From assembly GCA_946627725.1 (NCBI GenBank), contig CAMOVW010000005.1, forward strand, positions 1 through 39,577: 39,577 nucleotides of DNA. The letters are read 5' to 3'. Source of the stretch: an uncultured Clostridia bacterium (GTDB lineage: Bacteria > Bacillota > Clostridia > Oscillospirales > Acutalibacteraceae). Below are positions 12,101-33,682 of this stretch, in pieces (position 1 is the first letter of the stretch; each line of letters starts with the position of its first letter). The translations under genes and the position numbers were made by a program. The notes beneath the pieces are model-generated. The model was not told where the DNA came from. It did no database searches and saw only the letters and a list, made by a program, of their open reading frames with translations.

Positions 12101-15100
12101 CTCCGGCAACTACAACAGCGTGCTCAGCACCGTGCAGAAGCTGGATAACTTCCTGAAGAGCAGCGACTTTGTTAAACTGCTCGGCTCTGATGAAAAGGGT
12201 AAGAATATCACCACCCTCACCGCGTTCATTCAGGATATCCTTGCGGAGAACCTGTTCTCCAATAAGATGCTGGATACCCTTCTCGGGCTCCTGTTCCCGC
12301 TGCTTACCTCGATCTTTGACGAGACTCTTCCCTCTATGCTTGCAACCAAGATTCAGGGTAAGAGGATAAGCGATTTCGCGACCGATACGGGTAGCTTCTA
12401 TGTAAACGGCGGTATTCTTTGGTTCTATTTCAACGGCTACACCACCGCGTGGAGCGAAAACGCGGACGGCGGCGTTACCGGAACCTATACCGGCGGTTCT
12501 CCCTCAAACTATCTCACAAACAATTTTGTTGACGTAACCTCCAAGGCTGCGGGTATCTATATTTATCCTTCAACCCTCGGCAGCTATTTCCAGAATATTA
12601 CTACATCTGCCGGGCTCACCGCAGCGCAGGTAAATCTTGTAAAGGCCATCGGCCAGAAGATCAGCGCTGTTGGCAACACCACCATGCAGTGGAACAATTA
12701 TCACGGGCGCAACGCCTGGGATAAGTTCAAAGACGCGGACGGCGAATTTGTCTTCAACGGCGGCAACGGCTTTGATTGGGGCGTGGACGCGCAAACCTCC
12801 TTCGACGGCAAATATAATCAGTTCAAGGCGATGCTGGGCGCTATGCTCGGTTCCGCTATCGGTATTCTGCGCGCGCTGTTCGGTGATCAGACGTTCTCGC
12901 TGAACATGAACGGCAGCTATAACGAAGGAAAGAACCTTCTGTACGGCCATGTTGAGGATCTTGACGTCGGATATGATTTGGGAATCTTAGGCACGCCCAA
13001 ATCTACCGGTAACTGGCTTGACGTAGGTAACATTCAAGCAAGCCTTTCCATCCCCGGCCTGAACCTGTATAAGGTTGTATGGATCCCGCTGATGGAAGCG
13101 CTCGGTATGAACATGGGCGCCGACGGCGTATTTACCTGGTCCGTGCCCAACGTATCCGGCAACTTTACAGGCCCCGCGCTCGCCGGATATCTGATCGATC
13201 CCGTTTATCAATTGGTTCTCGCGATCAGTAATAAGCCCGTTGAGTCGGTATGCAAGCTGCTTCCCAACCTTGCGTATCACCTTCTGAACAACAGCATCCA
13301 GAACCTGTTGAGCATCAACATCAATATCAACCTCGTTCTCAGCGATCTTTCCATTAAAGACGCCGGCGGCGGTATTGCAGCCTATGCGGCAAGCTGGGAT
13401 TGGGTAAAGAGAATCATCCTCAACGCAGCGAAGGACGCGCTGAATTTCAACATCCCCGTGGCCCTCGGCGACATGCTGAATCTTGAAGACCTTCTCGGCT
13501 TCAGCCTCAGAGATCTCAATACGGTACTTGCCGGCGTGCTCGGCATGATCAAGGAAGACAGCGACGCCGTTTACGAAGTGCAGATCGGCACAGACGCCGA
13601 CGGCAATCCCATTATGGAAAAGCGCTGCCGCTATCTGCCCGGTATCGGCACCGGTAAGCTTGCCACGATGTTCAAGAGCGGCGGCTTTGTAACCAACGCT
13701 TCCACCAACGGCGCCCGTCCCAACGGCGTTACCAGAACCTATGTGAAAGCGGATGTGGAATATGTGTTCTACGCCATCTTCAACTACGTGTTCCGCGCCG
13801 CGCAGACCAAGGGCGGTCTGGCTGATATCTTTGCGCTGATCGAAGCCCTTGCAGGCTCCAACGTGGGCGAGAATATCCCTGCCATCGTTTACTCTCTGGT
13901 AGAGGGCATCGAGAGCGCGGACCTTGCGTTCGCCGCTCTGATCGAGCTGCTCAACGAACCGGAGTATTCGGTATCCGGCTACAACTGGTATAAGAAGTCC
14001 GCCTCTAACCAGCCCACCATCAACTGGTCTACCACCACCTTCACATATCTCAATTACTCCAACAAGTGGACCAGTGAAAAAGCTAAATACATTTATAATA
14101 ACGTAGACAACATCGTAAACGCCGTTGTGAACATGATCACCCCTGAAAGCCTTGAGGACTTCGGCGGCGACGTGAACGTATGGCTCGATAAGACCATCAA
14201 CTCCATGTTCAACAACGAAGGCATCATGAATGTGGTTGAGATCGTTACCACCATCGCCAACGCCATGAAGGGCATGAACGGCCTTGTGAAGCTGCTGCGT
14301 CAGCAGCTCACCAGCTCCGTTGCCTCCGACCCCGAGGTGAACATCTACGCATGGTATAACGTATTCGGCTATATTTACGACGATTACCGCAACGTTGAGC
14401 TGGAGCAGAACCAGTTCCTCGCTTACAACCAGATCGCAAAGCAGGTTTACGTTTATGAGGCCGTGGCCAAGGATAAGGAAGTTGAAAACTTTGTGGCTTC
14501 CCTGAAGGCCGGCACGCAGGCGCAGACCAACAAGTCTGCTTCCGATTATCTGCCCTACACGTGGAAGATCGTTTCCGCGTATCCCGTTGCGCCCGGCGAA
14601 AGCATCCCGTGGACCATCAACGGTCAGGTGATGAGCCGCTCCAATATCGTTCCTTATAACAAGAACGCCACCAACGACGCTTACCAGGTATACGAGAACC
14701 TGTTCTCTAACGTCCGCTGGACCGAAGCCACCGATCCCAGCGGCGGCGAAGACCCGTATTACACCTGGGAAATCAAGCTGACTGCCGATACCATCAGCCA
14801 CCTGAAGGTGAACGGCACCACGCTGACCAGAAACGGCAATACCTATATTGACGACGGCGTATCCTACACCGTTGGCAGCTGGTATCCGCTGGTAGACGGC
14901 GGCAAGATTGACGATCCCACCTCCGAGAACGCCCGCGCTGTATTCAGCGCCGTGTTCAGCGAACTGATCGGGCCGTTCTCCACGCTGTTCGGCTTCATCC
15001 TGTACGGCAAGGATCTGAACCTCTTCGGCGGCAACCTTACCATTCAGGGCTACAACGGCTATAACCACGCTCTGATCCCGTTCCTTGAGGCGCTGGGCAT

Positions 15101-18100
15101 CTACGATCTGAAGACCGAAGCCCAGATGAATGCCTATCTGAACAGCAACGGTACCCGCGCCGCTTTCGATTACCTTGTGAACAAGCTGTTTGAGGGTATG
15201 GATGAGCTGCTTACCGACGACCGCGTTTACGACGCCGACGGCAACGTGGTTTCCGGCAAGGGCGCGTTCCAGAAGCTGGTAGACGTACTGCCGCACCTGT
15301 TCTACTTCCTGCAGAGCGACGGTCTTACCACCGTGATCAAGAACTCCCTGATGTTTGTATGGCAGCTGCTCGATACACTGCGTCCCATTGCGAACATCAA
15401 TCTTGACGATATCATCCACGCGGCGCTCTGCCGCATCCTCGGCTACGTTTACAAGGCCGAAGGCAGATACGCGCACAATAACCTTACCACCGCGCTGCTC
15501 GAAATGATCGGCATCGACGAGGCCAAGTATACGGCTGCCGCCGCCACCCGCGACGCCGCCAAGGTATCTGCCATCTTCGATTTCTCGCTGCAGCACATGA
15601 CGCTGCAGGGCGTATATCGCCTTGTGACTGGCCTTACGGGCCTGAACATCTATCCTCTTACCTATGCGCTTGAGGGTATGGTTGAGGTTGCTATTGCCAA
15701 CGATCTTCTGAAAGAACTGACATACAGCGCCACCCAGAATGAAGAGTGGAGATATACGAGCTATCTTGTACCCAATACCTCCAATACCTACAGAACTTAT
15801 ACGCTGAACTTCCCGGGTCAGGATACCATCACCGTTACCCTTGAAGCGCTGCTGGATATCCTCAAGTACGAGGGCAATGCGGCCGCGCTCGACGAGCTGA
15901 TGGGCACTGTTAACGATTATCTGCCCGGTTCCATGAACCTGCTCACCGGCGAAGGCCTCGGCGGTCTGATCCAGGCCATCGTCAAGATCCTGGACGACCA
16001 GCCCTACGGTATCGAAGTTGAAAGACCCAACTGGGACTACATCTTTGAGAACCAGCGCGTGATCTATGCCGACGGCAACGAGCGCGCATGGGCCGACATC
16101 ATCACCACCAACGAGAAGCAGCCCGATTCCGCTTCCCGCTGGGCTGCCCTCACCGCGATCACCAACGTAAACAACTACGATTTCAGCCGCTATCACGCGC
16201 AGACCCTGTATAACCTGCAGTATCTCACCAGCTGGACCGAGGATACCGCCGAAGCCACCTATGAGGTGCTCTCCAGCGTACTCGATTACGTTGTATCCCT
16301 GATCGACCTTTCCGATATGTTTGAGGAAGGCACCGACGTATCCACCTTCAGCGCCGTTGTGGACGCCCTTCTGAGCCAGAAGGTATTCACGCCGGATCTG
16401 ATGATAAGCCTGCTGGATATGCTTGCCAACGTATACACCTACCTGCCGGACGATCTGCTTGACGTTATCAATCACCTGCTCACCGATAACGCCGCGGAAG
16501 GCGCTACCGTAGATATGTTCGCATGGCGCGACGCCGGTTACATCATTCAGGATTATCCGTGGAATGAGGACGGAACGCAGGATACCACCGCCGATAAGGT
16601 ATGGCAGGCCAACCGTAACTACGATTGGTTTGTGGAAGGCAACGCCAAGTACATCAACAGCGAAAGCACCTTTATCGACGCCATCGGCGAACTGCTTAAA
16701 CCTGCAGGCACCCTGTTCGCGCTGATCTTCCTGAACGAAGACTACGATCTGCTGGAGTCCATGAACACAAACTCCGCAAACAATTACGACAGCGTTGTGA
16801 TCAACGCCACCGCCGCGTACGCCACCGCTCTTGTGCCGATCTTTGAGGCGCTGGGTGTGGATCTTACGAATTATCAGCCCTCTAAGTATGATAACGGCGA
16901 CGGCACCTATAACGGCAGCCTGTTCATCACCGACCTTGTTGAGATCATCGATACCCTGTTCAAGGATATCATCTACGGTCCCAACGGCCAGGGCGGCCCC
17001 GTGATGTGGATCATCGAAAACCTGCCCAATATCATCTACTTCATCAACGCCGACGGCCTTAAGGCCTCCATCAATAACGTGTTCGGCTCCATCAACGGCG
17101 TGCTTGACGCCATCGAGACCGTTGTGAAGCTGCCCGTCGACTTCCACAACCTGCTTGATTCCGGTTTGGATCTTACCGATATTACCATGGAAGGTATCTT
17201 CGGCATGATCTACTCCCTTACCAAGAGCTATGCGGACGACGGCACCGTGATCCCCGGCCTCTACATGAGCCCGAGCCTGCTCAGCTACATCCAGAGCATT
17301 TACATCGGTAAGATCGAGGCCTTCACCTCCGCAAACGGCTATCAGAGCTTCCGTATGACCTACAGCCATACGGGCGACGAGAGAGCGGAAGAAGAGCACG
17401 ATATGATCACTATTCTGCTCGCCACCCTGCTTGAGTACGCTACCGATTCCGGCACGTTCTACGATAACGTAGACAGCCACGGCAACGAGATCGCATACAA
17501 CAACGCCGAAGCCCTCGATCGGCTCCTGTTCAAGGATTCCGATATGGAAGGCCTGATCGGTCAGGTAATCCACGCCCTCAGAAATCCCGAGGCGCTGGTA
17601 GTTACCGACATGGATTGGAATTACTTCAACCACGACGTGACCCTTACCACCGATACGGCGGCGGAACCCGTAACCGTACCTTACTATGCGTTCCAGTATC
17701 TGAACTGGACCACCGAATGGACCTACACCAAGGCCGAAACCGCTTCGGATGAATTTGAAAACCTGATTTTCCAGGTGCTCAAGATGCTCGTTCCTTCCAA
17801 TGAGGACGATATCGAAGAAGGCTCTCTGATGGAAAAGGTGAAGAACGCCGATGATATGGGCGATATCCTCTCCATCGACTTCATCTTCTCCGGCGATCTG
17901 CTGAATACGGTTCTCGACTTTGTAGCCAACCTGCTCTACGGTGAAGACAGCAAGCTGAACGAAGATATGATCAAGCTGATCGGCTACGTTCTCGGCGGCG
18001 ATCTCACCCAGTGGAACGGCACCGCTTACGCTTTCGATACCGTTGAAGCGAACGCCGACGGCACATGGACCCTGCCCGCAGGCGCCCAGCCCGAAACCAT

Positions 18101-21100
18101 CGCCGATATCGCTGGCAACCAGATCTACTACCTGGCAAATCAGGTAGTGGAAGTGCCCGAAGTGAAAGATAAGGACGGCAACGTTGTAACGCCCGCCACC
18201 ACCAAGACGGTTGAGAAGCTGTATCTGGTACGTGAAGGCAACTCCAAAGACTTTATTGCCGCTCTTGTTAAGATCCTTGAACCCGCCAAGGGCATCCTTG
18301 CATGGCTGCTCTTCGGTGAGGACTACACCTTCTTCAACCCGCACGACAGCCGCGACGAATACCTGCTGTCCATCCCGGGCTCCAACGGTTATAAGGACGG
18401 CCTCGCCCTGCTGCTGGAAGCCTTCGGCGCAGACAGCAACATGAAGTATGCCGAAGCTTATATCGGCCATACCGATCAGTTCATCTATGACCTTGCAAGC
18501 TCCATCGCGGAAAAGGCCAACGCCATCTGCAACGACCCCGTTAACGAAGTTGTGGGCCTGATCCCCGAACTGATCTACTTCATCAACGCAGGCGGCCTTG
18601 CCAAGACCGTAACCGGTTTGCTTTCCGGCCCGCTCGGTCTGGTGAACCAGGTGAGCGCGCTCGCGCCCGCGATCCAGAGCATGCTCGACCTGCCCGAGAC
18701 CGCTACAAGCGCTGTGGATGAAGAAAGCCAGTATGCGCTGATCGAACTCACGGTAGACAGCCTTCTGAAGAGCATCTTCGCCGATCAGGGCTATACCGTA
18801 CCGGTGAAAGCCGACGGCACCACCGATATCGACTTCAAGCTTACCGGCATCAACCTTGCTTACGTATTCAATATCCTTGAAGTGATCACCGGCATGGAGA
18901 TCACCGACGTGATCGGCAACCGCCTTGATCTGTTCGCCATCGGCCAGATCCACGCCTACGATTCCAAGTCCGGTTCCATCGGCGAGCCCGCGCTTGCCTA
19001 TAAGATGGGCTTCAACGCCAACTCCGCACAGGGCGGCAACGACGCATTCGCCGACTTTATCACCATCCTGCTCTCCGCAGTGGTAGATATCGTTGAATAT
19101 AAGGATGCTTCCGATAATTACGCCAACGTAACCGCGCTTGCCAAGCTGCTGGGCATTGAACAGTACGAAAGCCTCATTACTGCGGTGGTTAAGCTTCTGA
19201 AGGGCGCTCTGAATACCGAGATCCTGCCCATCGACTGGTTCTACTTCGACGGTGATCTGTCCAGATACGTTGTGGACGACGAAACCGGCAAACTGAAGCT
19301 GAGAGATCCGCAGCCCGAAATCACCGAGGGCTCTCTGAACGATATCCCCGAAGCCACCATCAACTATCTGACCTATGCTTCCGACTGGACGAAGAGCACC
19401 AGCGAATATATCGTTGACCACTTCAGCGAGATCGTGGACGGCGTACTCGGCATGTTCGTGAAGGACGAAGAGACCGGCGCTTCCAAGACCCTTACCGATA
19501 TCATCAACGATAACTTCTCCCTTGAAAACGACGTATTCACCTACGAGAACTACGCTGCTGTTGTAGAAGGCGTCTCCGGCATTGCCGAGCAGATCCCGGA
19601 CGTAGTGAACACGCTGCTCAACATTGCCCTTGAGATGGATCTCTCCTCTCTCGGCAGCCTTGCAACCCTTACCGAGGATCAGTATAACGCCCTGGACGGC
19701 GAAGGCAAGAAGAACGCGTTTGTTTCCGCGATCATCGCCATCGCCACGCCGCTGCGCCCGATCCTTGAGTGGTTCCTGTTCAACCAGAACCTTGAATACT
19801 TCGATAAGAAGACGGATTCCGGCATCGAGACCCTGATCTCCCTCGGCGGCGCCAGCGGCTATAACGACGCTCTCGTTCCGCTGCTTGAGGCCATCGGTGT
19901 GGATTGCCCGAGCTATACCGTATCCGACGGCGATACCGCTGCCCAGAGAAACGTGAAGTTCGGCAACTTCCTGTCCATCCTTATTGAAAAAGTGCTTATG
20001 CGTGTGGAAGAGATCCTTCAGGATCCGGCGGACGCGATCATCAACCTGCTGCCCAACCTGATCTATTTCGTAAACACCAACGCGCTTGCTACCATCATCA
20101 ACAATCTGCTTGCGCCCATCATCGGCCTTGTGAACGAAGCCGCTCCCGTGCTCGTATCCCTTACCGCCGATATCGATCCCGATGCGCCCGACGCTGATCA
20201 GGACGATATGATGGTGAAGCTTGCCAAGGCGCTGAAGGAATATAACGTCACCGCCGAAAGCACGCTGGATATGGCCGACGTGATCGGCATCATACTGGCG
20301 CTCTTCAAGGATGAAAACAGCGCCGAAGAAGATACCGGCCTGGTAGATTACGTACTGCAGAACATCAACTTCACCAAGCTTGATCTTGTAGCCATCCTTC
20401 AGCTTGTGGAAGGCATCCTTGCCGGCGGTTACATCGGCGATAAGGCTGTCAACCTCAAGATCCTTGACGTGGTAGGCGCCGATAAGATCGATAACTTCTA
20501 TCTCAACGGCATCGAATACTTCAAGTCCGCCAACGGCAAGCCCGCGTTCCGTATGCCCGGCTCCGCCGATATGATCACCGTGATCGTGAACTTCGTGCTT
20601 GAAGTGCTCCTGTATCAGGACGGCGACTTCTCCAACGCCGCCGAGATCGATAAGCTGATCAACGACGAAGAAGATCCCGCAAACCTTGTTCAGAAGGTTG
20701 TGGACCTGATCTACGGCATCCGTGAGATCCAGGAAGTGGATCCCGCCGCGCTTGATTGGAATTATTGGGATCACGAGCAGACGCTGGGCGATGGCATCAC
20801 CGTTCCGAGCCATAAGTTCGTATACCTTGATTACTCCAACCAGTGGAGCTTCGAGAAAGCCGTTTACATCGATAACGGCCTTGAGGATATCGTGAAGCAG
20901 ATCCTCACCCTTGCGGGCGTGGAAGACGGCGATATCAGCAAGCTGATCGGCCAGTATGTGAACCTTGCGGATTATCTGAACGCCGAAACGCTGCAGACGA
21001 TCCTTGACGCCATCAACGGCCTGTTCAACAGCGGCGATATCACGCTGCCCAAGGCCCTCACCGATCTGATCGGCCTGGTGCTCAACGTAGACCTCTCGAA

Positions 21101-24100
21101 GTGGGACGGCAGCTACGACTTCGTAGCCGACGGCACCGCCACCGCCGAAGCCAACGGCCTTGGTTACTACACCGAAACCGTGGACGGCAAAGAGATCAGA
21201 CATTACATTATAAATACGGATAACGACGATTACTCCGACTTCTCCTCCGGTCTCCAGATCATCCTTGAACCCGCGCAGGGTCTGCTTGGCTGGCTGCTGC
21301 TGGGCAACACCTTCGGCTTCTTCGTACCCAGCGAGAACGGCAACGTGGACGACGACGGCAACCGCCTGCACAACGAGCTCATCCGCGTGCCCGGCTCCAA
21401 CGGTTACGATTCCGGCCTTGTGCTTCTGCTGGAAGCCCTCGGCTGCGAAGGCCTGAAGCCCTACACCGCTTATGAGACCGCCGCCGGTTCCGGCACTTAC
21501 GACTGCGCCGCTCTGATCAAAGACGTGATCGATTCCGTACTTGCCAGAGTGAACGTGATCCTTGCCAACCCGATCGAAGAGATCCTTGCGCTGATCCCCG
21601 AGATCATCTACTTCATCAACATCAACGGCCTTGGCGCTGTGGTTCAGAACTTCGCAAGCGTACTGCTTGCCATCGTGAACGAAGTGCTTGAGAGCGGCCT
21701 GCTCGACAGCATGGTAGAAGGCGACCTTGCCAAGTATCTCACCGAGAACGGCGACGGCACCAACGCGGAAGGCGAACCCTACAACGGCACCTACAAGGTA
21801 GACCTTGACGCCATCATGACCGACCTGCTCAAGGAGCTGCTCGGCGATAAGGCGCCCGCAGACTTCACCTTCTCCTTCGACGACGTTGACCTGCAGTTCG
21901 TGATCGATATGGTTGAGATCTTCACCGGCCTTGAGATCGACGACGTGGTGGGCTACACCATGGATAAGTTCATCATCGGCGTGGTAGAGAGCTACGACTC
22001 CGCTTCCACCACCTATGAAGATACTTACAAGCTTCGCTTCAACACCGCCGAGCTGGATGAAAACGGCAATGCCGACCACACTCTGATCGGCCAGACCCGC
22101 GCCGACATGATCACCATCCTGATCAGCCTTGTGCTCGATCTGCTCGATAACACCGATAACGTAAACGCTCTGGTTGCCCTGATCGGCAACGAAGACATCA
22201 CTGCCGATACCATCAACGCCATCGTTGCACTGCTTAAGGGCGGCAACCTGGATGAGATGATCGATATCGACTGGTTCTACTTCGATCCCGACCACTCCAT
22301 CTACAAGGCGGACGGCATTACCGAAAAGGATCCGAAGCCCGTTATCGACTATTCCACCACCATCGCAACGCCCGCGCGTACGATCAACTACATTGAGTAC
22401 TACACCGATTGGACCAAGGAAGACGCCGATTACCTTGTAAACAACATCGACGCCATCATCTCCGAAGTGCTCGGTATGGTGCCCGGCATCGACGCCGATA
22501 ACGTTGCGGAACTGATCGCCGGTTACTTCACCGTGGATCAGATCTACACCAAGGATCTGTTTGTTACCATCCTCGACGCGATCCAGGGCCTGATCGATAA
22601 CTACGGCGAGACCCTTGTGAACGCCATCGGCCTGATCATCGGCGGCGACTTCTCGGTATACGCCAACATCGATACCGACGCCCTCGTCGTCAACGATAAG
22701 GAGACCTTTGTAGATACCCTTGTAACCGTACTCGAACCCATCTATGAGCTTCTCAACTGGTTCCTGTTCGGCGAAGACATGAAGTACTTCTACGATAACG
22801 AGTTCTACCGCAACGGCGGCGGTGAGACCACCGAGGCCCTGTACGACGATGCGAGAGACCTTATCAACCTCACCGGCGCGGAAGGCTACAAGTACGGTCT
22901 TGTACCGCTGCTCGAAGCCCTCGGCGTAGAGCTGCCCGCATTCCCCGCCTCCGGTAAGCTGGTTGCAGGCGAAGACTTCATGAAGGAACTTCTTACCGCG
23001 GTATTCACCAGAGTGGAAGATATCCTTGCGGATCCCGTTCATGAGATCGTGGCCCTGCTGCCCGAACTGCTTTACTTCATCAACGCAGGCGGCCTTACCG
23101 CTTCCCTGTACAACCTGCTGAACGCTGTTGTGGGTCTGCTGCCGCAGATCAGCGAAGTGATCGCGGCGCTGGGCGTTGAAGTGAAAATCAACGATAAGGT
23201 TTACACCGAAATCAATATCGACGACATCGTTAACGATCTGCTTGCAAACTACCTGCCCGAGGGTTCCAACGTTACCGTGAACCTGAAGCACGTAACGCTG
23301 CTTACCATTGCCGAGATCGTGGAAGCCTTCACCGGCATGGAGATCACCGATATCGTAACCAAGGAGAACATCCGCTACTTCTACTTCGGCAAGCTCGTAT
23401 CCTACCCGTCCGGCTCCGGCAAGACCGGCTTCAAGATGGTTTACTCCGACGCTGAAGGCGAAGCCGAGATGATCACCCTGCTTCTCAACTTCATCATCGA
23501 AGTGATCCTGTACAAGAACGAAGAGACCGGCGCGGATAACGTGGCCGCCCTCGAAAAACTGCTTGGCCTTGACGACAGCAACAAGGATCTTGTTGACACC
23601 ATCGTTAAGCTGATCACCGGAGATAAAGACATTTACACCTATAAGTATAACGAGATGAAGTGGAACTACTTCGACGAGACCGTTACGATCAAGACCGAAG
23701 ATCCCGAAACCGGCGTTATCACCGTGAACACGGCCCTTACCGTGCCCACCAGCCAGTTCATCTATCTCGAATACGAAAACGATTGGACCCTGCCCAGAGC
23801 GGACGGCATCGACAAGAACCTTGCCAGCCTGATCGACGGCATCCTGCCGCTGGTTATGGAAGACGCCACCTCCCTGAGCGACCTGCTCAACGGTTATTAT
23901 GAAGACTTCGCGATGGATACCATCTTCACCGCGGATAATCTGAACACCATCCTTGAACTGCTCCAGACTTACCTCTACGGTGAGGACGCTGTGATCGGCC
24001 AGCATCTGGCTGAGTTCGCGGGCCTTGTACTGGGCGCCGACATCACCGGCTGGAACTTCACCTACTCCTTCGCCGATTACGACGAATCCACCACCTATAT

Positions 24101-27100
24101 TACGGACGGCACCGGCCTGAGATACAATGCGGATTCCGGCATCAAGGTTTACGCCATTGAGAATGAAGAAGACTTCATCAACGGTCTTACCCTGCTGCTG
24201 CAGCCCGCAGGCAAGCTGCTCGGCTGGCTGCTCCTCGGCGAGAGCTACAACTTCTTCGCTGTGGATCAGGATGCCACCCAGACCAAGACCCTGATCAACA
24301 TCCCCGGCTCCGACGGTTACGGCAACGCGCTTGCGCTTCTGCTGGAAGCTCTCGGCGTGAAGGGCCTGAAGAAGAGCGCCGCTTATAACGGCGACGGCGT
24401 GGCCCTGCTGAAGGATATCCTTACCGGCCTTGTGAACCGCATCGATGAGATCATCGCCGATCCGGTGAACGAAGTTCTGGATCTGATCCCCGAGCTGATC
24501 TACTTCATCAACGCCAACGGCCTGAGCGTGATCGTGAACAACTTCGCCGGTCTGCTGCTCAACGTAGTGAACGCTGTGGTTGAAAAGCTGGATCTCTCCT
24601 CGCTCAACAGCGATATCCTGGATGACATGATCGTGGACGGCAAGCTGGATCCCGTGAAGTATCTGGAAGGCTACGTGACCGACCTGCTGAACAAATACGC
24701 CTACGAGCCCGTTACCTTCACGCTGGACGGCGTGAACACCGGCTGGGCTGTGGAAGTGATCGAAGCCCTCACCGATCTTCAGATCATGGAAGTGCTCGGC
24801 ACCGATTATCCGATCAGCAAGTTCGTACTCGGTACGCCCACGAAGTATGATACCGTATCCAACTTCGACGTTGCTTACAAGATCGCCTTCCCGGAGACCG
24901 ATAAGTACAACTATCGCTGCGATCTGATCACCATCGTTCTCAGCTTCGCCATCGAGCTGCTCGAGAACGCCCACAACCAGGTAGTGATCGAAGACGAATT
25001 CAAACTCACCGCGGGCATCATCAGCGACGTGCTTGCCCTTGTGAAAGAACGCGCCATCCAGATCACACCCGATTACGAGTGGTTCTACTTCGATTCCGCC
25101 GCCACCTTCAACGGCACGGATATCACCGTAACCACACCCGAACGCACCATCAACTATCTGACCTACGCCAGCAACTGGAGCGAAGACTTCGCCGATTATC
25201 TTGACGACCACCTGAACGGCATCATTGCTTCCGTTCTCAAGATGGCCGGCCAGGGCGATACCTCGGTGGCAAAGATCATCGAAGGCGTCTTCTCCATGAA
25301 GAGCGTATACACGGCTGATAACCTCAACACCATCGTGAACGCCATCAAGGATCTGGTAGGCCAGCTCGATCAGCTGATCACCGACGCGGTAGGCGAAGAA
25401 GCCGATAACAACGTGATCGCCGATGCGCTCGACCTGATTCTGGATATCGATATCCACGCATGGGATAACATGACCTTTGATGAAGCGCTTGTTTCCGATA
25501 AGGAAGGCTTCTCCAAGGCGCTGGCCCAAATCGTGGCCCCGCTGAGCGACGTACTCAACTGGCTGTTCTTCGGCAGCAGCATCCGTCTGTTCAACAGAAG
25601 ACATACCGATACCGGCGTGGTAGACGACATCCTTGTGATCAACGGCTACGACGGCTACAACGAAGGCCTTGTACCGCTGCTTGAGGCTCTGGGCGTAGAC
25701 CTTACCGACGCAAAGAACACCGCCACCATCGAAGAGAAGGTTGAAAAGATCCTGCTTGCGGCCTTCACCAGAGTGGAAGAGATCCTTGCGAATCCTGTGG
25801 ACGAAGTGCTTGCGCTTCTGCCCGAACTGTTCTACTTCATCAACGCGAACGGCCTTGCCGCTTCCGTGAACCACCTGCTCGGCGCGCCGCTCAGCCTTGT
25901 GGACGGCATCAACGCCCTGCTGAAAGACCTGAGCATCGAACTGAACATCGCCGGCAATGCCTACGATGAGATCGATATCGACGGTCTGCTCAACAGCCTT
26001 CTGAACAACGCGCTTGCCGATAAGCTCAACGGTAAAGAGCTGGTGATCAACACCAAGAAGCTTGACCTTGTTGAGATCGTTAAGATCGTTGAACTGTTCA
26101 CCGGCCTTGAACTGGTAGACGTGGTTACCGAAACCAAGCTCGATAACTTCTATCTCGGCCAGATCTATTCTTACGAATCCGCCAACGGCAAGACCCTGTT
26201 CAAGATGGGTTACTCCGAGGATGCACAGAAAGATCGTGCGGATATGATCACCGTTCTGGTCAACTTCCTTGCCGAAGCCGCCCTGTATGAGGATAACGAC
26301 GCTGTGATCGAAGACCTTGCCGGACTTGACGAAGGTACCATCGAAGAGATCATCAACGCGCTTGAAACCCTCGGCGGCAAAGACTACGAATACGACTGGA
26401 ACTACTTCGAGGGCACGTATGAAGAAGCCTTCGACCGTTACGCAACGCCGGATACCCCGTTCAACAACTACCTCACCTATAAGAGCGACTGGACCAAGAC
26501 CCTGGCCAACGACCTCTATAACAACCTTGATACCATCATCAACTCCGTTCTCGCTATGACGGGCAACGAGTCCTCCACGCTCGGCGAGCTGATCAACAAG
26601 AGCTTCACGCTCTACAAGGGCGAGTATCTGAACAAGATCCTTGAACTGGTTCAGAAGCTGTACGACGTACTGGACGAGACGCTTCTCGGCGCCATCGACG
26701 CGTTCCTTGACATTGACCTCACCTACTGGAAGAGCCTGCACTTCGACGAGACCAAGACCTACACCTCTTCTGAGTTTGCGGCTGCCGTAGTGGAGATCGT
26801 TAAGCCCATCTACAGCGTGATCGACTGGCTGTTCTTCGGCAAGGATATCACCCTGTTTGTGGATAACGCCACCGGTACCGAGAACCTGATCGTGATCCAG
26901 AGTGTGGATGCTTACACCACCGGCCTTGTACCCGTACTGGAAGCCCTCGGCGTAGAGCTGCCTGCCTACGACGGCACGCAGAAGTGCTCCACCAAGGTAG
27001 ACGTGAACGGCGTTCAGATGGACTTCTTCGCCGCGATCGTTAACGCGATCCTGCGCCGCGTGGATACCATCCTGGCAGATCCGATCAACGAAGCGTTTGA

Positions 27101-30100
27101 GCTTCTTCCCGAACTGCTGTACTTCATCAATGCAAACGGTCTGTCCACCGCCGTATATAATATGGTTGGCGGCGTGATCGACGCTGTGAACAAGGTCATC
27201 GAGCTCGGCTTCCTTGATCTGGGCAGCGAAAACATTGAGCAGTACGTACTCGATAACTTCAACATCGACCTGAATAAGCTCGATCTGGTAGGCCTCTTCA
27301 ATATCGTTGAAAACCTGGATGCGGTTCACGGCCTGAAGCTGAACGACGTATTCACCGGCGACTTCAATGAAGACGGCGTTGAAGAGAACATTCTCGAATA
27401 CTTCTACATCGGCGATTACGCGAACGCGTACATCTCCTCCGCTGAAAACTACAAGGGCTACAAGCTGAGCCTTGACGAAGAGAACAAGGGCGACCTGCTC
27501 ACCATGCTTCTCAGCGTAGTGCTTGAAGTGATCCTGTACGACGCCAACGAAGGCCCGATCACCGAGATCATCAAGGGCTTCAGAGAAGACTTCACGCAGG
27601 AGAACTTCCACACCCTGAAGCTGCTGCTCACCACCGGCATCCAGACCAACCCCGAGATGCTGAATATCAACTGGGTATACTTCTGGAACTACAGTGAGGA
27701 AGAGCTGCAGGCCAAGATCACCGAGGCCCTGAGCAACGAAACCACCAACTGGCCGGCGGAACCGGTTGAAAGAACCCAGAACGCTCTGAAGTATTCCAAC
27801 AACTGGAACACCGACGTAAGAGATTACCTCAACCAGAACATCGATGAGATCGTTGATCTCGCGATCGCCAAGTTCACCGACGCCAACAGCCTGAGCGATC
27901 TGCTTGCCAACAAGCTCGACCTGTGGAGCAGCAAGGATGTGAATCCGGACAGCATCGACCTTGCGAACCTGCTGCTCGGTTACATCAAGAACGCGCTCGG
28001 CAAGATCGACGGCGTGCTTGTGGATACCGTAGGCTCCCTGCTCGGCGCAGGCCAGCTTACCGCTCTGAAGAATGCCCAAGCCGTAGGCCTTGAGAGCAAA
28101 GAAGACTTTGTGGACTTCATGGTTGAAACCCTCAGCCCGCTCTCACCCGTACTTGACTTCGTACTGTTCGGCGGCGAATACAAGTTCTTCACGCACCTCA
28201 GCGACGGCGAGCCCTGGACCATCATCCTGAAGGGCGGCGAAGGCTACAAGTATGGCCTTGCTCCGATCCTTGCGGCCCTCGGCGTGGATACCGATATCTC
28301 TGCCGAAACCGCCGACGTGGCGCTCAGAGACGTATTCACCAACCTTGTAAACCGCATCGATGATATCCTTTACGGCGGCGACACCATCAACGAAGCTCTG
28401 AAGCTGATCCTGAACGTGATCTACTTCATCAACGCGGATGGCCTGAGCATAAGCGTAACGAACCTGCTTGCCCCGATCGATGAACTCCTGAAAGAAGTGA
28501 ACGACGAGCTTCACATCAAGGATGAACTCACTATCAACAGCCTGATCAAGAACGTTGATCTTGCGAACCTGAACTTCGACTTCATCTTCGATCTCGTTGA
28601 GAATAAGACCAACATCGATATCGGCACCCCGATCGGCGATTACCTCAAGAACTTCTACTTCGGCGCTACCGAGTACTTCACCTCTTACGATGAGCTCGGC
28701 AACTTCCGTATGGTATACTCCGAGAAGGAGAACCGCATCGACTTCATCACCGTAGTTGTTACCCTGCTGCTCGACGTGATCGTATACGCCGATAACCGCG
28801 ACGCCTTCATCAGCCTGCTCGGCAGCGCTGCGAACATGGAAGAACAGAAGGCGGCTGCAAGCTTCGACGCACTTGTGGCTCTGCTCACCAACAACGAGAT
28901 GAGCATCCCGATGGCGAAGTACGAATGGAACTTCCTGAAGTACGCCGATACCGGCACGGTGATCTCCGCTGCGAACGGTCTTACCGGCAACAGCATCTTC
29001 GGCACCGGCATCTACGGCCCGCTGTACACCAGAGAGATGGGCGCTTACATCTCCAAGTTCCTGCCGCTGTTCATTGATACGTATCTCGTGCTTCTGGGCG
29101 TAGATAACGGCAATGGCGGTACCTACAAGAGCCTTGAAGAGATCCTGAAGAAGCTCATCGGCAACAACATCTACACCAATAAGATCCTGCAGCAGCTTGC
29201 CGGCGCGATCACAGGCGCGGTTGCAAACCTGAAAGAGACCATCGGCGATCAGCTGTTCAACCACATCGTTAACGTTCTCAACGCCTCTCTCGGCGTGGAC
29301 CTGAACGACCTGCTTTACGGCAGGGTTGCCACCATCACCGAAGGCAACCAGCAGCAGTTCATCAAGGCGATCTGCGATCTGCTTGCGCCTGTTGCCCCGC
29401 TGCTCAGATGGCTGCTTTCCAGCGACACCGATATCGCTCTGTTCAACCACGATACGGTTGTGAACTCCGGCGATAACTACGCTGCCGGCGATGATTACCT
29501 TGTGATCCACGGCGCTGACGGTTATCAGAACGCCATCATCCCGATCCTTGAAGCCCTGTGCGTAGGCACCAACGGCAACATCAAGACCCAGGCCGAGTTC
29601 GACGCCATCACCGATAACAGCCAGATGATCTCCACGATCATCACGCCGATCTTCGAGCGTCTGAACAACATCCTGAATGACCCGATCAACGAGATCCTGA
29701 AGGAACTGCCCGCAGTGGTTTACTTCCTGAACTCCTATGGCCTTGATACCGCTGTGAAGAACCTGCTGAACCCGGTATACAGCCTGCTTTACACCATCGA
29801 GCCTCTGATTGCGGACGTTGACGCGCTGCACAACAGCAAGGGCGAAATCGACCTGCTGGCCATGGCCAACATCGATCTCTCCGAACTCACCGCCAACAGC
29901 CTGATCCAGATGGTGATCGATATGGTAAGCGATCAGATCTCCGGCTTCGATCTTACCGATATGATCGGCGACGCCGTAATAGAACTGAGCATCGGTACCG
30001 TAGACAGCTTCACCTCCAAGCGCATCCTGCCCGAGGAACAGATCGGCACCGCTTATAAGAGCGACGCCAGCAAGACCAGACAGGTAAGCGGCGGCAACGC

Positions 30101-30678: not shown

Positions 30679-30794
30679 ATAATGGTATTGGTAACAAAAT
30701 AATTAAAAATTGATTACAATTTCATTAACTCCGTTTATTTTCTCATATATATATGATACTATATAGCCGATTTGAGAAAGGATGGAAACGGTGT

Positions 30795-31997
30795 ATGGAA
30801 TTGGATAAATGGATCAGCCTTGCCGTTGGGTTCGCCGCCGTGTTTGCGGGGTCGGCGATTTACAATAAAGCGAGCAAAAAGATAAACGGCAGGCGGATCA
30901 CGGATTTTCAGAGCTTTTTATTCGGTACGGGCTTTACCTATTTGTTTATGACGGTTTACGTGGTCGTCACGTTTTTCTTCGATTACTATATCAAGGGGTC
31001 GGCGCTGCAGGGGTATCACCGCACGCCGGTAAACAACACCCTGTTTTTTGCGATCTTCGGCAAGGGGCTTGCCGGGGAGGCGCAGTATCCCATCATGGAT
31101 CTGGATCTGAAAATCCTTTGCTGCATGATCGGGTGCGCGTTGGGCGGCGGCGCTCTGGTCCTTTACCGCGCGCTGCGCAACCGGAAGCAGCACACCCCCG
31201 AATACGGCCTGCTGTACGGCTGGACCTTCCCGAAAACCACCTTTAAGGCGTACTTCAAAAATGAACTGCGCGATATGAAAGCGCAGCTGCACCCCATAGA
31301 GTACCTCTGCTGGTGGGCGCTACGGCTGGTGATGATATACGTTCTGATCAAAAGATACGTTACGCAGGGGTATGATACCGTTGTGATGCAGCTTGCGGTG
31401 AATCTGGTGGCTACGTTTGTGATCCCGCTGGTGCGCATCCTGTTTTTCGGAAAGCTTTTCTTCGGCAAGATCAATCTGCGGGTGCAGAGCTATATCGATA
31501 TCTTTGTATGCTTCGGCTCTCTGATCGGGCAGGGGTTCGGCCTGAACGGCGAGATCCGCGAATATGATAAGATATTGCATCTGGTTTCGGGCGGCGTGGC
31601 GGTATTCATCGCCTTCTGCCTGATCGAGGGCACCCGCAACGGGAAAACGCTGCCGAAGTTTACAAAAAGCGTGGCTTCCATGGGTTTTTCATGCACGGTG
31701 ATCGTGGTATGGGAGATTTTTGAGTTCTTTACGGATTTTCTGATGCCGGATTCCTACAACCAGAACTTTTATTACGATCCGCCCGCGGATATGTTCTTCT
31801 TCAAGCTGTTCGGCTTCGGCGCTGAGAACCCGGGCCAGCTTGCCGTGCTCGATACCGATATGGATATGCTGATCGCCTTTTTCGGCTGTATCGTTTGCGG
31901 CGGCGCGCTTCTGGCGTATCTTACCGTAAAAGAAAAGACCGGGCAGAAAAATCCGGCAGAACGGCGCAGCATGTTGAAAGCCTTCAGCCTGAATTAA
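30795..31997 (+). CDS. Multi-spanning membrane protein, DUF2238/YjdF-like
   Basis: A 400-residue membrane protein. The start at 30795 was chosen over the ORF start at 30753 because AAAGGATG precedes it (a somewhat long 12-13 nt spacing) while 30753 has no ribosome binding site. The C-terminal half has KILHLVSGGVAVFIAF, VVWEIFEFFTD and DTDMDMLIAFFG. This order, a helix starting with K-LH, a WEIFEF motif and a D-T/M-D helix, resembles the DUF2238/YjdF family of integral membrane proteins, whose function is not established. The N-terminal half, with four or so hydrophobic segments, is additional. I see no confident promoter; the AT-rich stretch 30700-30770 probably contains it. No clear terminator follows. 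Confidence 0.65.
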   Translation: MELDKWISLAVGFAAVFAGSAIYNKASKKINGRRITDFQSFLFGTGFTYLFMTVYVVVTFFFDYYIKGSALQGYHRTPVNNTLFFAIFGKGLAGEAQYPIMDLDLKILCCMIGCALGGGALVLYRALRNRKQHTPEYGLLYGWTFPKTTFKAYFKNELRDMKAQLHPIEYLCWWALRLVMIYVLIKRYVTQGYDTVVMQLAVNLVATFVIPLVRILFFGKLFFGKINLRVQSYIDIFVCFGSLIGQGFGLNGEIREYDKILHLVSGGVAVFIAFCLIEGTRNGKTLPKFTKSVASMGFSCTVIVVWEIFEFFTDFLMPDSYNQNFYYDPPADMFFFKLFGFGAENPGQLAVLDTDMDMLIAFFGCIVCGGALLAYLTVKEKTGQKNPAERRSMLKAFSLN

Positions 31998-32038: not shown

Positions 32039-32067
32039 TTGCATTCTCTTTCAAAAAGTTATATAAT
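32039..32067 (+). promoter_or_regulatory. Promoter of the PHP-domain gene
   Basis: TTGCAT (32039-32044), a 17-bp spacer and TATAAT (32062-32067). The start is expected near 32074, about 95 nt upstream of the TTG start codon. Confidence 0.75.
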
Positions 32068-32071
32068 AATA

Positions 32072-32151
32072 TCAGCGAAACAGCGCCATAAATTGCAGAA
32101 TAGCGCTGTTTCACTGATTTTCTTGGCGGGTCTATGTATATAGACTTTTTT
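32072..32151 (+). promoter_or_regulatory. 5' leader with two hairpins, the second attenuator-like
   Basis: Hairpin 1 has 15-bp arms (TCAGCGAAACAGCGC with GCGCTGTTTCACTGA, one G-T type difference) at about 32072-32119, followed by TTTT. Hairpin 2 (GTCTAT-GTAT-ATAGAC, 32130-32145) is followed by six T, ending just before the Shine-Dalgarno AAGGGGG. The layout resembles a transcription attenuator. The ligand, if any, is unknown. Confidence 0.45.
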
Positions 32152-32168
32152 AAGGGGGATAATTCACT

Positions 32169-33068
32169 TTGGGCGGAGATTTGCATTGCCATACTCGATT
32201 AACGGACGGCAGTATGGGAATTGAAGATATTATCGCGCTCGCGAAAAACAGGGGGCTTGAAACCATCGCCATCACCGACCGCGACTGTCAGGCCGGTACG
32301 GTAAGAGCGAAGATCATAGGGGAGAGAAACGGCATACGGGTCGTGCCCGGCGTAGAGCTTTCGTCGCTTGACGCCGAAACGGGGGAGGTTGTTTACATCC
32401 TCTGCTATTTGCCCGATTACGCCGACCGGCTGGAAGGGCTATGCCACAGAAACGCGGCGGCCACCAAACGCGCCGCGCAGAAAATGATGATCAAAACCGC
32501 AAAGCGGTTTCCGATCACGGCGGACGTGATCAAGCGCTGCGCGTCCGGTTCCACAAATCTTTACATACCGCACATCATGCACGCGCTGATGGAATGCGGC
32601 GAAACGGACGGCATCTATTCCGATTTGTACCGGGAGCTGTTCTGTTCCGAAAGCGAAACGAATATCATTGAAACGCCCGCATACGCCCACACGGCGGAGG
32701 TGCTTACCGCGATCAAAGACGCCGGCGGCATCTCGGTGCTGGCGCGTCCCGCCGTGTATGCCGATCCGCTTGCGCTGCTGGACCGCCTTGTGGATATGGG
32801 GATCAATGGCGTAGAGGTGTGGCACCCGTCGGCGGATAAAGAACACACCGATATCTATTACGCCTATGCGAAAAAGAAAAAGCTGCTGATGGTGGGCGGT
32901 TCCGATTTCCGCGGGATGTATACGCCCCAGCCGCTTTCACTCGGTTCTTATCTCACGCCCAAAACCCAGCTTGCGGAACTGCTCGGCTACAAAGCAAAGC
33001 TCAAGCGCCTTGCAAAGCGTGAGGCCGCCCTTGCGGAAAAAGAGGCCGCAGAGGCGATCAGCGAATAA
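32169..33068 (+). CDS. PHP-domain protein with altered metal site
   Basis: A 299-residue protein starting at a TTG with AAGGGGG about 10 nt upstream; its first residues already form the PHP motif GDLHCHTRLTDG (H6, H8, D13). The fold follows the TrpH/YciV branch of PHP phosphoesterases: GVELS (E63), IPHIM (H135) and GSDF (D246) are present. The positions that are normally histidine in ITDHD, AHP and SDFH are arginine here (R38, R193, R248), and the IHIVG-type histidine is Tyr76. Four of about nine metal ligands are thus lost, so a trinuclear metal site is unlikely. It may be a degenerate enzyme or a binding protein. The C-terminus is a charged Lys/Ala/Glu helix. The next gene starts 38 bp downstream in the same direction. 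Confidence 0.8.
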   Translation: MGGDLHCHTRLTDGSMGIEDIIALAKNRGLETIAITDRDCQAGTVRAKIIGERNGIRVVPGVELSSLDAETGEVVYILCYLPDYADRLEGLCHRNAAATKRAAQKMMIKTAKRFPITADVIKRCASGSTNLYIPHIMHALMECGETDGIYSDLYRELFCSESETNIIETPAYAHTAEVLTAIKDAGGISVLARPAVYADPLALLDRLVDMGINGVEVWHPSADKEHTDIYYAYAKKKKLLMVGGSDFRGMYTPQPLSLGSYLTPKTQLAELLGYKAKLKRLAKREAALAEKEAAEAISE

Positions 33069-33106: not shown

Positions 33107-33682
33107 ATGCCGGAACTGTATGACGACAGCGATATGAAAATTGTGGGCGCGCCGCAGAAAAGTGCGGAGGACGTCGATTTTCAGGGGTTTCTTGCGGAAT
33201 CCTCACGCCAGCATTTCAACGGGAATATCGCCAAGGCGAAAACGCTGGGGGCGAACATCGTAAGCTCTTTTTCTTACCGCGCCGCACCGGCGGAGCTGGT
33301 GGATTTCGTAATGGAAAACGGCGTGCTGCCCACCGAGGACGTGCTTCTGCAGACCCGGTTCCTTTCCGTGTTCTCGGCGGAGATCAGCCTTGAACGGTAT
33401 CTGCCCTCGCCGCTGCTGGCGGAGATCGCGAAAAGCGCCATGTACGACGTGCTCATGCAGTTCTCGCCCGATTTTTACAACAGCCTTGCGCGCTCCGGCG
33501 CATTCTCGTTTTATTACATGCATGCCGGCAATGGCGACGTTGCCGACGCCGAGGTGGGCCGGCAGTTTGCCGTACTCTGCGGAAAGGGAGGCGACCCCGT
33601 TTATGCCGCTCTGGGCGAAAAGCTGCACCGTATGAACACCTCGGTTTACAGAAAAGCGATCCGGGGATTCGTATTTGTGTAA
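33107..33682 (+). CDS. Uncharacterised cytosolic protein
   Basis: A 191-residue protein. The ATG at 33107 follows AGGGGGG by six bases; the ORF's earlier TTG at 33074 is poorly placed. No signal peptide or membrane segment is visible. The body looks alpha-helical, with a hydrophobic C-terminal half containing ALCGKGGDPVY-like and FSFYYMHAGNG segments. It sits 38 bp after the PHP gene and is probably co-transcribed with it. I do not recognise a family. Confidence 0.7.
   Translation: MPELYDDSDMKIVGAPQKSAEDVDFQGFLAESSRQHFNGNIAKAKTLGANIVSSFSYRAAPAELVDFVMENGVLPTEDVLLQTRFLSVFSAEISLERYLPSPLLAEIAKSAMYDVLMQFSPDFYNSLARSGAFSFYYMHAGNGDVADAEVGRQFAVLCGKGGDPVYAALGEKLHRMNTSVYRKAIRGFVFV

Follow-up and report, generated by a model that had tools for sequence, protein, structure and literature searches.

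Loss of metal ligands in a stand-alone RNase AM/TrpH-type PHP protein of an uncultured Clostridia bacterium and its recurrence across a bacterial family: a probable turn from catalysis to binding

Introduction

What does a PHP protein do when three of its metal-binding histidines have become arginines? The question is raised by a gene in a 39,577-nucleotide stretch of DNA (the window; contig CAMOVW010000005.1) from an uncultured Clostridia bacterium of the gut. The closest well-described enzyme is RNase AM of Escherichia coli (Rnm, YciV), a TrpH-type PHP exoribonuclease. Three metals are held by H13, E72 and D255 (alpha), by E72, H83 and H198 (beta), and by D20, H45 and H257 (gamma), and activity is lost in the D20A, E72A and D255/H257A mutants (PMC9410882). 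PHP domains without metals have been described in bacterial replicases, where the ligands are lost and the neighbouring residues are better conserved (Barros et al., 2013; PMC3666897). Arginine is the commonest replacement there at six of nine positions, and it has been read as a positive side chain that replaces metal (PMC3666897).

Results

The gene, its control region and its product

The PHP gene occupies positions 32169-33068 of the forward strand and starts with a TTG codon. Its reading frame and translation, a match to Pfam PHP (PF02811; 36.4 bits, above the cut-off of 26.4) and structural matches to 3o0f, 9etk and 2yb1 identify the product as a stand-alone protein of 299 amino acids of the RNase AM/TrpH type. 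The NCBIfam matches lie below their equivalog cut-offs: Cycl_ph_dihydrol (NF041661), the best profile, scored 117.3 bits (cut-off 500), nside_bi_sphtase 85.9 (400) and RNase RNM 76.5 (375).

An AlphaFold2 model built with 48 orthologues has a pLDDT of 96.4 and contains both the PHP barrel and the insertion domain, as the Foldseek matches also indicate; the fold is thus predicted to be intact. The best match in sequence and in structure is Bifidobacterium adolescentis BAD_1165 (3e0f/3o0f; 28% identity, Foldseek E 6.7e-24 to 3o0f, TM-score 0.81), which has histidine at positions 38 and 248, where the window protein has arginine, and Asp at 246. Further matches were 9etk of Vibrio cholerae (TM-score 0.78) and 2yb1 (TM-score 0.75). 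Fold and domain layout are those of 9etk and of E. coli RNase AM (7ug9).

A sigma-70-type promoter (TTGCAT-N17-TATAAT, 32039-32067, forward strand) aligns in three relatives, and the ribosome-binding site AAGGGGG (32152-32158, forward strand) is invariant among the four closest species. Pairs resembling TTGCA/TATAAT precede many PHP genes of the genus, whether their sites are intact or degenerate. The leader can form a hairpin with 25-nt arms that begins at the -10 box (32065-32124), and right before the ribosome-binding site comes a second hairpin that resembles a terminator, GTCTATGTATATAGAC (32130-32145) with TTTTTT after it; this second stem seems to be preserved by compensatory changes in the relatives L002-L004. 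A structured leader shared across the genus was considered and rejected, the hairpins being limited to the closest species.

The metal site of the window protein

Ligands were mapped by alignment to RNase AM (7ug9) and from the published ligand list (PMC9410882). The residues noted in the initial annotation were all confirmed by the translation and this alignment. R38 (codon CGC, 32280-32282, forward strand; motif ITDRD) and R248 (CGC, 32910-32912, forward strand; SDFR) stand for the gamma-metal histidines H45 and H257 of RNase AM; R193 (CGT, 32745-32747, forward strand; ARP) and Y76 (TAC, 32394-32396, forward strand; VYILC) stand for the beta-metal histidines H198 and H83. Three of the ten ligands are therefore arginine and one is tyrosine. 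The HxH pair (H6, H8), D13, E63, H135 and D246 are retained, and the HxH motif, E63, D246 and conserved H135 are features shared with RNase AM. Unlike RNase AM, the window protein has lost two of three ligands at the beta site and two of three at the gamma site, so that the three-metal set is incomplete. The alpha site is complete (H6, H8, E63, D246), H8 being counted there on our assumption that the general PHP pattern applies. From the HxH pair, the text on RNase AM names H13 alone (PMC9410882). A further difference lies in the 5'-phosphate pocket: the position of Arg141 of RNase AM, occupied by Lys in 93% of intact orthologues, is Ile in the window protein (I133; ATA, 32565-32567, forward strand).

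The closest relatives

An orthologue was found in 23 of 26 genomes in a genus search and in 255 of 398 in a family search (E<=1e-30). The near relatives are metagenome-assembled genomes labelled Clostridia, Ruminococcaceae or Oscillospiraceae, several of them from goat rumen and gut. R38, R193 and R248 are common to L002, L003 and L004, which belong to other species and are 90, 82 and 80% identical to the window protein; histidine at these positions in close relatives would have spoken for decay or error, and the nearest ones carry the same three arginines. L005-L008 have R38 and R248 and retain H193. In the eight-species clade of the window protein, R38 and R248 thus occur in 8/8 species and R193 in 4/4 of a subset, so the arginines are conserved in an orthologous clade. 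The changes are real, but it was too much to call them three independent His-to-Arg events on this protein's own account: R38 and R248 are clade-wide in eight species, and R193 came later, in four. Loss of K133 and the residue V242 are also common to all eight species, while the changes at 193, 76 and 246 are confined to subsets; the gamma site and the phosphate lysine therefore probably went first.

Other genus members have different ligand sets, such as N13 with R248, N13 with A246, or Y8, N13, N193, C246 and K248, and in five (L014, L015, L018-L020) the metal site is fully intact. Intact orthologues of the family (e.g. L014, L018, L024, L050) reach 65% identity to the window protein and mostly have the same companion gene downstream (see below); unlike it, they retain all ten ligands and, as a group, mostly K133.

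Replacement by an intact paralogue was considered as well. The window PHP query had no match in the window genome at E<=0.001 besides itself, and five members of the genus whose sites are intact (G001, G007, G013, G016, G021) likewise yielded no full-length TrpH-like second copy; no simple replacement is visible. A separate frame of 1229 amino acids elsewhere in the window genome contains a PHP domain and is probably DnaE. Genome G002 has two diverged PHP copies with differing patterns, L008 (R38/R248) and L045 (N13/R248), which reflect either a duplication or genome mixing in the assembly.

Recurrent ligand loss across the family

The family sample comprised 142 distinct orthologues after the addition of 80 more loci. 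All ten ligands are retained in 80 of them and one to five are missing in the other 62 (44%); because the sample is skewed to the sequences nearest the window, this share is no family-wide rate. When the ten ligand columns were left out of the tree, the losses formed about 24 maximal clades, an approximate number since the tree was a quick build with some weak branches. The outgroups carry intact metal-site states. Parsimony without a reversal penalty gave 12 changes between intact and lost at position 38 and 15 at position 248. H6, H8, E63 and H135 show hardly any variation, degenerate members included, and this near-constancy suggests that part of a role with metal or ligand persists. At least one alpha ligand is missing in 36 of the 62 degenerate proteins.

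The replacements differ between positions that all begin as histidine. At 248, 17 of 18 first losses led to a basic residue (Arg 11, Lys 6); at 76 none of 17 did (N, S, D, Y and others; Fisher p=4e-9 for 248 vs 76). Arg or Lys accounts for 6 of 13 first losses at position 38 and for 4 of 13 at 193, where Asn predominates otherwise. The six direct changes from His to Lys at 248 each need two base changes. Mutation alone is therefore insufficient to explain the outcomes at the four positions. After loss of the histidine, position 248 tolerates almost only basic residues, with K248 later becoming Met in one clade of another genus. The set of basic residues varies by lineage and is empty in some (NN and D..N patterns). 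In 47 of the 62 degenerate proteins the ten ligand positions together carry a net charge above the -3 of the canonical set. As a sole rule, charge compensation is incomplete, as 14 of the 62 sites stay at -3 and one is at -4.

The rest of the active site and selection

Of the columns with at least 90% conservation in intact orthologues, degenerate orthologues have most often lost the ligands and K133, Q134, H219 and T242. K133 is present in 93% of intact vs 32% of degenerate orthologues. Losses at K133, Q134, H219 and T242 rise with ligand losses (Spearman 0.79, uncorrected for phylogeny). In the same proteins, conservation is at least 97% in 25 columns, for intact and degenerate orthologues alike, and the ligand neighbours L5, C7, D37, F247 and G249 are nearly invariant.

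Sister pairs of degenerate proteins (18 pairs) gave a median dN/dS of 0.099 (range 0.05-0.22) vs 0.059 in intact pairs (p=0.0017), values that are rough since synonymous distances were often near saturation; the closest pair gave 0.09. Degenerate lineages thus show a small relaxation, and purifying selection on them is still strong. Purifying selection in spite of lost catalytic residues, the mark of a pseudoenzyme, was therefore observed in the degenerate sister pairs. The initial proposal, that selection has changed the function and left the fold otherwise intact, agrees with these ratios (0.05-0.22) and with the predicted structure (pLDDT 96; TM-score 0.81 to 3o0f).

Discussion

A non-catalytic PHP protein

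The reading that we favour, and consider probable, is that the protein descends from a metal-dependent, RNase AM/TrpH-type phosphoesterase and has become a non-catalytic PHP protein, in which basic side chains take the place of lost metals. Beta and gamma sites would be gone, and the three arginines, R38 and R248 for gamma and R193 for beta, most likely occupy the emptied metal positions or lie next to them, where they may neutralise the remaining acidic ligands and so keep the barrel folded. With the substrate-phosphate lysine lost, the protein should, judging from the sequence, have given up the ability to bind and cut 5'-phosphate substrates. The recurrent loss of metal residues, with the rest of the protein under selection, indicates that the protein probably binds rather than cuts. 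Its retained function would probably be the binding or scaffolding of another macromolecule, and this bacterial family may have gone through such a change from enzyme to non-enzyme about 24 times. Points against this explanation are that the complete alpha site could hold one metal and that H6, H8, E63 and H135 stay nearly constant in degenerate members.

The nearest parallel is the variant PHP domain of E. coli Pol III alpha, in which part of the ligands are lost while the fold is kept, arginine is a frequent replacement, also for the histidine of the D-x-H motif (R203, compared with R248 here), and residues adjacent to the ligands are better conserved than the ligands themselves. We would file the window protein as one that works like a variant PHP domain outside the polymerase group. 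There are differences: position 76 is never basic in the family, while the corresponding position 6 of the Pol III PHP domains is often Arg; the window protein stands alone (299 amino acids), whereas the PHP domain of Pol III alpha belongs to a polymerase linked to the epsilon proofreading subunit; and here the site was lost many times inside one bacterial family.

Several other readings were weighed. That the arginines come from a decaying gene, or from an assembly error in a metagenome-assembled genome, is very improbable. In its favour are the fragmented state of the window genome (404 contigs, 92.9% complete), the single transition that turns His into Arg and a slightly higher dN/dS in degenerate lineages; against it stand the same residues in genomes of three other species, unbroken reading frames, dN/dS values well under 1, a conserved promoter and ribosome-binding site, and losses centred on the active site. 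Error or decay was rejected on the three species with the same arginines and the low ratio in the closest pair. It is also improbable, though less strongly so, that the protein is still a hydrolase, working with one metal at the intact alpha site while the arginines replace the other two metals. D246 is changed in close relatives (to E in L005 and L007, to G in L010), more than half of the degenerate proteins miss an alpha ligand, and both K133 and T242 are lost. Moreover, no exonuclease activity has been detected for the PHP domain of Geobacillus kaustophilus PolC, which has only an Asp-to-Asn change and binds metals (PMC3666897). What speaks for one-metal hydrolysis is that the window protein and the three relatives nearest to it have lost none of the alpha ligands, and that H6, H8 and E63 are nearly invariant family-wide.

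The arginine cluster may instead form a new anion site that holds a nucleotide, RNA phosphate or another anion uncut, for example as a sensor, which is close to what the initial annotation had suggested; we consider this unlikely. The constancy of R38 and R248 in the window clade, the bias towards Arg and Lys at 248, two-base changes included, and the raised net charge of most degenerate sites would all fit an anion site. The same bias is explained equally well by charge replacement of metal, and Arg or Lys in place of a metal-binding His is a known structural substitution in the metal-less PHP domains of Pol III (PMC3666897). Furthermore, K133, the counterpart of the 5'-phosphate arginine of RNase AM, is lost together with the ligands, the basic sets differ among lineages or are absent, and K248 gave way to Met in one clade. 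An anionic ligand may be entertained, but the case for it is the weaker one. A bolder proposal, to which we give only a small chance, is that a non-catalytic function, perhaps tied to the companion protein, predates the loss of catalysis, and that the three-arginine pocket of the window clade is a dedicated anion-sensing site. An older non-catalytic function would leave the active site free for repeated dismantling; if it were true, the family would provide about 24 natural replicates of the transition from enzyme to binder.

Metal-less PHP domains have previously been known as parts of DNA polymerases. The case described here is new in that the protein stands alone, the loss recurs in one family and intact orthologues are close by. 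Intact and degenerate orthologues exist side by side, even in one genus at more than 60% identity, and the repeated loss amounts to a replicated natural experiment on an enzyme becoming a non-enzyme. An annotation as phosphoesterase or RNase would be wrong for many of these PHP genes. Our literature search found no paper that joins pseudoenzyme and PHP domain, and none on the window PHP protein, which is weak evidence of absence.

The companion gene and its surroundings

Directly 3' of the PHP gene, on the forward strand (33107-33682), lies a gene for a helical protein of 191 amino acids with an N-terminal D-D-S-D-x-K-I motif. In 105 of 142 orthologue loci, from many genera, this gene and the PHP gene are neighbours on one strand. 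The AlphaFold2 model (pLDDT 88.7) has helices after the motif; the motif itself is conserved in the alignment and of low AlphaFold confidence, and it resembles a docking peptide. The companion gave no consistent Pfam match, its fold no PDB match at E<=0.001, and its profile nothing significant against PDB sequences. In all 35 PHP-bearing genomes searched that lack an adjoining copy it is missing genome-wide, and it was found in 6 of 12 searched genomes without a PHP gene. Its absence has no link to PHP degeneration (lacking in 14 of 62 degenerate vs 23 of 80 intact, p=0.45), so nothing marks it as the binding partner. In the non-catalytic reading preferred here it would be a candidate partner and not an obligatory one.

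The genes 3' of the pair we take, from their translations, to be rpmG, secE, nusG, rplK and rplA; an L10 leader is also located downstream of the pair in the window. Upstream, at 30753-31997, a membrane protein of 414 amino acids with a weak DUF2238 match is encoded; of 149 loci, 8 carry it in their flanks, and these come only from the closest species or ones near to them. Farther upstream, an ORF of 7192 amino acids (9048-30626) shows what appears to be a signal sequence and numerous repeats of similar segments, and an open frame of 5030 amino acids (12987-28079) runs antisense to it.
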